A DNA stretch of 64,000 bases, taken from contig JAGXKN010000007.1 in assembly GCA_018335195.1 (NCBI GenBank), forward strand, positions 1-64,000, in the 5' to 3' direction. A model generated the notes under the pieces. The model had not been told where the DNA came from. It worked only from the letters and a program-made list of their open reading frames with translations, and made no database searches. Of this stretch, positions 9,875 to 37,305 are shown piece after piece (position 1 is the stretch's first letter; every line of letters starts with the position of its first letter). The translations under genes and the position numbers were made by a program. The DNA is from Desulfobacterales bacterium. Lineage in GTDB: Bacteria > Desulfobacterota > Desulfobacteria > Desulfobacterales > Desulfosalsimonadaceae.

Positions 9875-10810
9875 ATGGCAGAAGACGGGATGTATGATTT
9901 GATCATTATAGGCGGCGGCCCGGCAGGATTGACCGCCGGGATGTATGCGATGCGGGCGGCCCTTAAGACCGTATTGATTGAACAGGGTGCTCCCGGCGGG
10001 CAGGTGGCAGTTACGGAACAGGTCGACAATTACCCGGGTTTCATCGAGATCGGCGGTTTTGAGCTTTGTGAAAAATTCCTGGAACACGCCAAGTGGTACG
10101 GGCTTGAGATTCTGGATAAGGAGGCTGTTGCAGCAGAGCCCGGAATCGAATGCCACGCGGTTCGCCTTGCCGACGGCACGCTTTTGAAATCCCACGCGGT
10201 TATTCTGGCAACCGGGGGGACCTCCAGAAAACTCGAAGTTCCCGGTGAAAATGAAAACTTCGGCAAAGGGGTTTCCTATTGCGCCACGTGTGACGGTTTC
10301 TTCTTCCGTGATAAGACCGTGGCCGTGGTGGGCGGCGGGGATACTGCGCTGGAAGACGCGCTTTATCTTTCAAAGATTGCGCGCAAGGTCTACATCATCC
10401 ATCGCAGGGATGCCTTCCGGGGCAGCAAAATTCTCCAGGAGCGGGTCTTTTCAGAGCCGGGGATTGAAATTATATTCAATTCCGTTGTCACCGAAATCCG
10501 GGCCGGTCTGGGGGGTGTTGAGCGTATCGGCTTAAAGGACGCGCAAACAGGGGACGGCCGGGATCTTGATGTCGAAGGCGTCTTTATTTTCGTGGGCTTT
10601 CTGCCCAACAATGTGCTGGTTCCTGCCGGGATAAAAACGAATAAAACCGGTTATGTGGTTACAGACGAAAAATGCGAAACCGACATACCGGGAATCTTTG
10701 CTGTAGGCGATCTCCGGGAGAAATACGCCAATCAGATTGTACTTGCCGCAGCAGACGGATGCACGGCCGCCCTGGCCTCAGCACTCTATGTCGAAACCCG
10801 GAAGGCATAA
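9875..10810 (+). CDS. trxB: Thioredoxin reductase
   Basis: The 311-residue flavoprotein has the FAD dinucleotide fold GGGPAG at 13-18, the redox-active pair C136-A-T-C139 in SYCATCDGFF, the second nucleotide fold VVGGGDTALEDA at 151-162 and the HRRDAFR motif at 176-182 that usually marks NADPH preference. The C-terminal FAVGDLREK contacts FAD. It reduces thioredoxin or a thioredoxin-like protein in the cytoplasm. The length is normal. The ATG at 9875 follows GGAAGAGG. It leads a probable three-gene unit with an ArsR regulator and a DsrE-family selenoprotein candidate, which could be part of the electron acceptor chain. Confidence 0.95.
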   Translation: MAEDGMYDLIIIGGGPAGLTAGMYAMRAALKTVLIEQGAPGGQVAVTEQVDNYPGFIEIGGFELCEKFLEHAKWYGLEILDKEAVAAEPGIECHAVRLADGTLLKSHAVILATGGTSRKLEVPGENENFGKGVSYCATCDGFFFRDKTVAVVGGGDTALEDALYLSKIARKVYIIHRRDAFRGSKILQERVFSEPGIEIIFNSVVTEIRAGLGGVERIGLKDAQTGDGRDLDVEGVFIFVGFLPNNVLVPAGIKTNKTGYVVTDEKCETDIPGIFAVGDLREKYANQIVLAAADGCTAALASALYVETRKA

Positions 10811-10830: not shown

Positions 10831-11229
10831 ATGCGGCAAGTCAAAATGCAAAAAACAAACCCGGCTAAGTGTTCGATGACAGTCAGCAAAGAAGGAAAGG
10901 CCTTGCAGGATGGTCCGAACGGAATTTCACGTAATCCGGCAGCAGGAAAAAACGGCCGCCCGGTTTTGCATCAGTTCGAGGTTGATGACCGCCAATGCAT
11001 CGCTTTTCTGGCCAAAAGCCTTTCAGGCGCCAACCGGCTGAGGATACTGCTGCTGGTCAGCAGCGGCAGGAAATCGGTATCCGCCATCGTCGAGGCGCTT
11101 GACTTGTCACAGCCCCTGGTGTCGCATCATTTGAAAGAGCTGCGGCGATCCCTTCTGGTGAGGGTGGAGTGTGAGGGCCCTTTTATTTATCATGAGCTTG
11201 CGGATCCGGGAATCCTGGATGTATTATAA
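10831..11229 (+). CDS. ArsR-family transcriptional regulator, possibly shortened
   Basis: The 132-residue frame has a variable N-terminus of about 55 residues with several possible starts (10831, 10846, 10876; none with a strong ribosome site). The ArsR winged helix begins at FLAKSLSGANRLRILLLVSS and includes ALDLSQPLVSHHLKELRRSLLV, the recognition helix. The domain ends in FIYHELADPGILDVL then TAA. In-frame codons after the stop read ALSDMAADLLAARKTF and then a second TAA, resembling the C-terminal helix of relatives, so the stop may be a nonsense change that trims the dimerisation helix. It probably controls the trxB cluster. Confidence 0.8.
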   Translation: MRQVKMQKTNPAKCSMTVSKEGKALQDGPNGISRNPAAGKNGRPVLHQFEVDDRQCIAFLAKSLSGANRLRILLLVSSGRKSVSAIVEALDLSQPLVSHHLKELRRSLLVRVECEGPFIYHELADPGILDVL

Positions 11230-11292
11230 GCCTTGAGCGATATGGCCGCGGATCTTTTGGCAGCGAGAAAGACGTTTTAAGGAGAGCAGTCA

Positions 11293-11610
11293 ATGAAAAT
11301 TGCAATGATCGTCTGCGAGGACAACCCGGAAGTGGTCTGGAACGCCTTCAGGCTGGCCAATATGATGCTCGAGGGCATGGATGACGTGAGCATCTTTTTA
11401 AACGGCCCGTCTGTATGCTATGAACAGTCTGCTTCCGAGCAGTTTCCGCTAACGGAACTGGCCAGGATCTTTATCCTTTCCGAAGGGCAGCTTCTGGCCT
11501 GAGGAAAGCTCATGGACCTCCACGGCGAGGAGGAAGGATACCACAAAAGGGGCACCCAGAAAAATCTCTATGACCTGATCAAAGAAAGCGACAGGGTCAT
11601 CACTTTTTGA
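11293..11610 (+). CDS. DsrE-family protein with in-frame UGA (putative selenoprotein)
   Basis: From the ATG at 11293, with AAGGAGAGC just before it, 69 codons match DsrE/DsrF-like proteins (KIAMIVCEDNPEVVWNAFRL, then a GMDDVSIFLNG strand). TGA at 11500-11502 falls exactly where family members have the first Cys of an LACGTC motif. The frame continues for 35 codons in good family register (QKNLYDLIKESDRVITF) to TGA at 11608-11610, giving 105 residues. A hairpin with a GG-containing loop follows the internal TGA. Reading it as selenocysteine restores a normal-length DsrE protein, probably a cytoplasmic sulfur or selenium redox carrier linked to the adjacent thioredoxin reductase. The alternative is a nonsense pseudogene. 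Confidence 0.75.
11503..11540 (+). promoter_or_regulatory. Candidate bacterial SECIS hairpin
   Basis: Immediately 3' of the internal TGA, CCTCC (11517-11521) pairs with GGAGG (11529-11533) around the seven-base loop ACGGCGA. The GG of the loop lies about 21 bases after the TGA, within the spacing described for bacterial SECIS elements recognised by SelB. The stem is short, so the fold needs computing. Confidence 0.5.
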
Positions 11611-37109: not shown

Positions 37110-37290
37110 TACCATGAAATTTTCCGGCAGGGCAGGTCTTCTGGCTCCCGGATCGTCCTAGTTGCCGCGCCTTCCCATTTCTTTGCAAAGAAACAGTGGC
37201 TTTTTTGCGGTTTTCGTCCCCGGTTACAGTGGCGGGTCCGCTCCCGATTTTAACGGGATTCCCTTTTATGCCCGATTGGGCGCCTTGCTG
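37110..37290 (-). promoter_or_regulatory. Cobalamin (AdoCbl) riboswitch
   Basis: The minus strand carries the conserved elements in order: GCGGACCCGCCACTGT, AGCCACTG, ATGGGAAGGC and the B12 box AGCCAGAAGACCTGCC at 37146-37131. Spacing and order match the cobalamin riboswitch class. It precedes cbiK by about 130 bases with an intrinsic terminator in between, so high adenosylcobalamin should terminate transcription of the whole operon. The exact 5' and 3' limits are approximate. Confidence 0.95.
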
Positions 37291-37305
37291 GTATATGTCC
37301 TACAA

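Follow-up and report, generated by a model that had tools for sequence, protein, structure and literature searches.

Knowledge of DsrE-like selenoproteins goes back to 2005; they were described from the Sargasso Sea (2005), Desulfovibrio vulgaris (2006) and GOS (2008), as proteins of the Pfam02635 type with selenocysteine (Sec) at the first motif cysteine, and in the available portions of PMC1088965, PMC2398784 and PMC13188914 they are listed only as UxxC. Our searches of the open-licence literature turned up no other motif for DsrE-like selenoproteins in the accessible tables, that of PMC1794560 giving none; the word DsrE is absent from the text of deep-Sep (PMC12013277). Among sulfurtransferases with this fold, according to the accessible part of PMC3397948, the sulfur delivered to DsrC is bound by DsrE-Cys78, TusD-Cys78 is the only cysteine essential for transfer, and DsrH-Cys20, the cysteine of a second subunit, is essential in vivo.

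The window, by which we mean the whole 64,000-nucleotide stretch of contig JAGXKN010000007.1 (Desulfobacterales bacterium) that was analyzed, carries a gene of this family whose product is almost certainly a selenoprotein, and we infer that Sec is inserted at its internal UGA in the cell. Like the described forms it has Sec at the first motif cysteine; its clade shows UxxL, in contrast to the UxxC of the published tables. The features of the gene are as follows.

11293..11610 (+): gene for a DsrE-family selenoprotein of 105 residues, residue 70 being Sec (UGKL) when TGA is read as Sec; from homologue alignment
11500..11502 (+): UGA codon, candidate Sec codon, at the Cys78 position of DsrE/TusD/YchN; codon 70, from alignment
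11608..11610 (+): true stop, codon 106; TGA in the window, TAA, TAG or TGA among relatives
11280..11284 (+): ribosome-binding site AGGAG, read directly, 8 bases 5′ of the ATG at 11293

Under the standard code, the frame from 11293 stops at 69 residues and is called as such, as expected in a preliminary description of this DNA, which held that ordinary gene calling would miss or truncate the gene. Its placing of the TGA at 11500–11502 on the first cysteine of the family motif is borne out by alignment (ACGTC in the Cys homologues vs. AUGKL here), and the in-register continuation that it reported amounts to 35 sense codons before the TGA at 11608–11610.

Fold, active site and motif of the window protein

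The protein scores 18.9–19.0 bits over the full Pfam DsrE profile (PF02635), against a gathering score of 22.7; of six homologues scanned, five exceed that score (28.5 to 42), but L044, which belongs to the window's clade, falls below it (21.6). No NCBIfam model matches the protein, and a sequence search of the PDB returned nothing for the window clade or for a UxxC relative. A structure model built from 12 sequences (mean pLDDT 71, pTM 0.67, with residues 39–50 and 76–82 under 50) is closest to YchN (Z 10.6, 97 aligned residues, 3.1 Å), followed by 3mc3 (9.8), chain 2d1p_A of TusBCD (9.6) and chain 2hy5_A of DsrEFH (9.6), the last two of which we take to be TusD and DsrE. Nine of the ten entries with Z ≥ 8.1 are DsrE/YchN-type or uncharacterized proteins and one is a designed cage; the next entry stands at 6.3. 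Foldseek gave no match under E 0.001, and its top five rows (E 0.0047 to 0.023) comprise three DsrE or DsrE/DsrF-like entries (2qs7 and two rows of 3pnx) together with two proteins annotated as having unknown function. By this model, the predicted fold of the protein is that of DsrE/YchN.

U70 aligns with the cysteine of L125, a YchN-like Cys homologue that served as the bridge to the PDB, and the ACGTC of L125 aligns with the LCKTC of YchN, the first cysteine of which was counted as residue 78. Sec70 would thus hold the place of the persulfide-carrying cysteine of DsrE and TusD. The window protein resembles the YchN, TusD and DsrE sulfurtransferases in fold and in the position of the catalytic residue, and differs from them in having Sec where they have Cys78. 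A counterpart of DsrH-Cys20 was not found here, and no DsrF- or DsrH-like gene was recognized beside the gene in the window; it encodes a single small protein, which is a further difference from those sulfurtransferases.

Homologues were collected from three search sets (60 relatives, the set genome_contigs and 395 genomes of the phylum), from which 107 frames were aligned, L022 being left out as the same record as L010 and the identical L031 and L042 both being kept. For the tree, the two motif columns were excluded and eight of the 107 rows dropped, namely those shorter than 95 residues, L042, and L122, which was misaligned. The 99 remaining rows comprise 63 UxxC, 19 UxxL, 13 CxxC, two UxxA, one CxxA and one UxxS. 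In this tree, which is built from few columns and has 26 open forks, the window sequence falls in a supported clade of 23 rows (99/92) with 19 UxxL and four UxxC members. The second cysteine, at +3, is absent from the window protein and replaced by leucine, as in 19 of the 99 rows (window included). UxxL takes three changes on the tree, which implies repeated loss or regain of the motif, or a return of the cysteine. Cultured bacteria with the UxxL form include Desulfosarcina alkanivorans PL12 and D. cetonica (loci L025 and L029). Judged from its sequence, the window protein is a member of a UxxL group that has kept Sec and lost the second cysteine. The preliminary reading as a DsrE-family selenoprotein is well supported, with a refinement that it did not contain: the second motif cysteine is missing, and the motif is UxxL, not UxxC.

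Tso locus context and possible role

Tso loci (TsoR, TsoA, TsoB and TsoC, with TsoX and TsoY) were reportedly defined by Haft and Tolstoy in 2025. The available part of a review (PMC13188914) describes them as three-selenoprotein operon loci; our account of them draws on that part, on NCBIfam model names and on the loci compared here, and no account of their function was found in the open-licence literature. Two genes upstream of the window gene bear on this comparison.

10831..11229 (+): TsoR, ArsR/SmtB-type regulator; NF045707, 125.1 bits, cut-off 115
9875..10810 (+): trxB, thioredoxin-disulfide reductase; TIGR01292, 351.8 bits, cut-off 343.45

The ArsR gene noted earlier upstream of the DsrE frame is present and can be named more closely as TsoR, the regulator of Tso loci (NF045707). 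Its frame meets a TAA ~17 model positions short of the end; the remaining codons continue to 11277, and the match at 10987–11277 contains one TAA. In the genome of the sister species (G001, locus L073), TsoR is a remnant that has lost most of its length through deletions, and trxB and dsrE are kept, the latter with its UGA.

A search of the 395 genomes found 33 TsoR places over the cut-off, in 32 genomes, all of which were examined with ~5–6 kb flanks where contigs allowed and with profiles made for this analysis. TsoA with a UGA lies beside TsoR in 32 of the 33; the window alone is without it, by the profile that detected TsoA in the 32 other loci. Of three TsoA proteins compared with NCBIfam to check their identity, one scores over the cut-off of 170 (206.4) and two below it (140.4 and 125.1). 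Neither TsoA nor TsoY gave a match in the window's own genome, in searches where the controls also gave nothing. DsrE is present at ten of the 33 TsoR places, window included, nine times with UGA and once with Cys. By motif search only, and with some contigs ending nearby, TsoB was found at none of the ten loci with DsrE vs. 18 of the 23 without it, and TsoC at one of the ten vs. 20 of the 23.

The loci of the closest relatives are more complete. In L024, the stop of a cysteine desulfurase gene overlaps the start of DsrE, and TrxB, TsoR, TsoA and TsoY follow; the desulfurase is NifS/IscS-like (best model NifS, 467.9 bits, under the cut-off of 530.75), and the locus also carries another DsrE gene, a UxxC form that likewise contains UGA. 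In L023, a TsoA remnant precedes DsrE and an SQR-III-type gene follows ~530 bp after it. The latter (L023:2476-3717) matches the model “type III sulfide quinone reductase, selenoprotein subtype” at 614.3 bits (cut-off 525) as an open 414-codon frame without TGA; in the window's own genome, a search for the selenoprotein-type SQR gave nothing over the cut-off (best 44.8 bits). Genes of the TauE/SafE sulfite-exporter family lie near two further DsrE-Sec copies (L022:2915-3667 and L025:6332-7120), and a homologous frame is found ~5.7 kb upstream of the window gene.

The window locus is like Tso loci in having TsoR directly upstream of DsrE, and its relative in L024 stands beside TsoR, TsoA and TsoY; it differs in having no TsoA, and the motifs of TsoB and TsoC are mostly missing from DsrE-bearing loci in general. 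Because TsoA is gone, TsoR is cut by a TAA, and TsoR is broken by deletions in the sister species, we consider it quite likely that the window locus derives from a Tso selenoprotein locus under TsoR control, from which TsoA has been lost and TsoR is being lost. Across the UxxL/UGKC clade, TsoR, TsoA or a remnant appears in only six of 21 wide contexts (clade rows L041, L048 and L051 have no wide context and stand outside the 21), the other genes being alone or at contig ends. The trxB–arsR–dsrE arrangement, proposed before as a unit, was rejected as a conserved one by the comparison of the 33 contexts: it occurs only in the window genome, in the sister species, where arsR is broken, and, with the genes in another order, in L024. 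A cobalamin riboswitch also lies in the window (37114–37302, minus strand, 106.9 bits).

The absence of a second cysteine at +3 excludes internal CxxC-type chemistry. Mainly because of this, and because known sulfur carriers use a single catalytic residue, we lean slightly toward reading the UxxL protein as a one-residue carrier of sulfane sulfur in the Se–S form, a role suggested by the fold, the active-site residue, the loss of the second cysteine and the neighbors (cysteine desulfurase, SQR-type protein and TrxB, with TauE/SafE near the L022 and L025 copies). The selenolate of Sec70 would take sulfane sulfur as Se–S from a putative donor, which may be a cysteine desulfurase, SQR or polysulfide, and the sulfur would then be passed on to a putative acceptor or cleared by a thiol/thioredoxin system. 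A resolving thiol supplied by another protein could make the protein a reductase instead of a carrier.

It is rather unlikely, in our estimate, that Sec70 serves as a redox residue that reduces peroxide, disulfide or oxidized sulfur or selenium species, is regenerated by thioredoxin/TrxB via an intermolecular bond and carries no sulfur. Such an enzyme would fit the trxB gene adjoining DsrE in the window, G001 and L024, the UxxC motif of most relatives (63 of 99 rows) and the marking of DsrE-like proteins as homologues of thiol-based oxidoreductases in the available part of one survey (PMC1794560). However, UxxL offers no resolving cysteine, and the characterized members of the fold, in the accessible part of PMC3397948, are sulfur carriers through this one residue; moreover, those three are the only ones of 33 contexts with trxB beside DsrE, other trxB frames being farther off (partial and 1.4–1.9 kb upstream in L127, ~4 kb away in L140).

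Still less probable is a part in selenium or metal(loid) handling, with Sec70 binding selenide, mercury or arsenic under the control of TsoR as a metal-sensing ArsR-type regulator. TsoR does belong to the ArsR/SmtB metalloregulator class, but sulfane sulfur can also be sensed by ArsR-type repressors (PMC12423496, as far as accessible). Metal ligation has been suggested for the Sec of SaoB, SaoC and UXX-star (the available part of review PMC13188914), and YedF, which is linked to selenium, has a DsrE-like domain (PMC5322559, in the part available). RND-permease-like frames lie near DsrE in L073, L075, L130 and L145, but the single permease of this kind that was scored against models, from L022 (a record shared with L073), came nearer to multidrug models (641.5 bits) than to CusA/CzcA (376.3), all under their cut-offs, and the other neighbors scanned, which are few, are TrxB, TauE/SafE, cysteine desulfurase, SQR-like and TsoY.

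Conservation and decoding of the UGA codon

Counting the window's own genome, 13 of the 60 relatives' genomes have a match to the protein, and every one of these matches contains exactly one TGA; 73 of the 395 phylum genomes have a match; in genome_contigs, TGA stands at codon 70 in 11 of 11 loci, one of which is the same record as a match among the 60 relatives. A search of viral contigs with the protein found no relative. At the site, the 107 aligned frames have 89 UGA, 15 Cys, two gaps (fragments) and one Leu (a misaligned fragment with its TGA elsewhere), a pattern of UGA/Cys exchange, not of random stops. Within the clade on the tree, the inner codon is UGA in 23 of 23 rows, whereas the terminal stop of the 20 UxxL rows (L031 and L042 being identical) is TAA in eight, TAG in seven and TGA in five.

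Constraint on the codons is equal on the two sides of the UGA, with a median dN/dS of 0.134 before it and 0.135 after it (67 and 101 usable of 210 pairs, respectively, the rest having dS saturated, zero or > 3), in agreement with the earlier impression that the stretch past the TGA still codes. The set comprised 21 different sequences, each 315 nt long, left from 29 clade rows after seven of other length and one duplicate had been dropped. Against the nearest species, dN is 0.031 and dS 0.210 before the UGA, and 0.036 and 0.226 after it. Since the inner UGA is invariant in the clade, the terminal stop mixed and dN/dS equal on both sides, the UGA at codon 70 is beyond chance.

Several further loci deserve mention. 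Tandem DsrE gene pairs occur in L090, L081, L118 and L124, with one Cys and one UGA form in three and both UGA in L124. The DsrE frame of L053 (G176) has a TAG at codon 16 as well as the TGA at codon 70, in a draft that gave no tRNA-Sec match; this may reflect decay, sequence missing from the draft or pyrrolysine. In L109 (G159:C1:460431-460744), from a one-contig genome, the DsrE match is in two frames split just before the UGA, through a frameshift or a sequencing error.

The genome of the window has tRNA-Sec (76.6 bits), SelA (611.7), SelB (340.6) and SelD (361.5), all over cut-off, which answers the question of selA, selB, selC and selD raised in the preliminary description. Neither of the findings that it named as refuting its reading holds, since SelB and tRNA-Sec are encoded here and the relatives exchange UGA with Cys at this codon. 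The SelD gene (G000:C87:32529-33449, L147) has an in-frame TGA of its own, and its product is probably a selenoprotein. Among 63 genomes with a UGA-containing DsrE frame, 59 have tRNA-Sec; with stricter filters in use, no match was found in G164, G176, G400 and G412, all multi-contig drafts. As a genome-wide discriminator tRNA-Sec is not sharp, since 343 of the 395 sampled genomes have it anyway. We have very little doubt that the UGA at codon 70 is read as Sec, decoded by the SelA, SelB, SelD and tRNA-Sec of this genome.

A hairpin follows the codon.

11517..11533 (+): candidate bacterial SECIS hairpin CCUCC-ACGGCGA-GGAGG, with GG in the loop; stem CCTCC 11517–11521 / GGAGG 11529–11533

Its stem starts 14 nt downstream of the UGA, and the GG of the loop is reached at ~22 nt. 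The CCTCC/GGAGG stem with a GG-bearing loop is thus present as first described, but in the window it does not fold better than chance (z = 0.00; 87 of 200 shuffles fold as well). In the clade, the hairpin is mostly CCUYCAC-GGN-GUGRAGG with 7 bp (24 downstream sequences, 22 of them distinct), 98.1% of cells are paired, and the loop GG is invariant over the 22 distinct sequences; the window sequence has lost one pair (an A-A mismatch) to a Val-to-Glu codon change and keeps 5 bp. One pair shows a compensatory change, C-G vs. U-A, in which synonymous variation of a Leu codon goes along with a Glu/Lys codon, with a single U-G exception (L030); on the tree, this covariation comes down to at most one starred, three total independent pairs, and the shuffle control makes no correction for relatedness. 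The hairpin just downstream is probably the SECIS of UGA 70. Its conservation across the 24 sequences, 22 distinct, is consistent with a SECIS and is not proof of one; as independent proof of Sec it was rejected because of its weakness in the window and the small number of independent changes behind the covariation.

That the UGA is an ordinary stop, leaving a 69-residue protein or a pseudogene, agrees with the standard code, the weak hairpin of the window and the decay of the adjoining TsoR, but is highly improbable given an inner UGA throughout a clade whose terminal stop varies, equal constraint after and before the UGA, homologues with Cys at the site and complete Sec machinery in the genome.

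Implications for the DsrE family and Tso loci

Taken whole, we consider it likely that the window gene encodes a DsrE/YchN-fold selenoprotein with Sec70 as a carrier, at the relic of a Tso locus. More tentatively, DsrE-Sec might be the mobile sulfur carrier of one flavor of Tso locus, replacing the rhodanese-like TsoB in a relay made largely of selenoproteins, in which the UxxL forms would hold Se–S; we regard this as doubtful.

Selenoprotein genes are easily annotated as truncated, and the window frame, with 69 residues under the standard code, is an example. Several relatives of the gene are found in Tso, a selenoprotein cluster that is known but little understood, and the linkage of TsoR, TsoA and DsrE introduces into these loci a protein whose chemistry, the transfer of sulfane sulfur, is known, which offers Tso a testable role. 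The UxxL clade parts carrier chemistry from CxxC redox chemistry within one family, and so makes it possible to test what sulfur carriers would gain from selenium.
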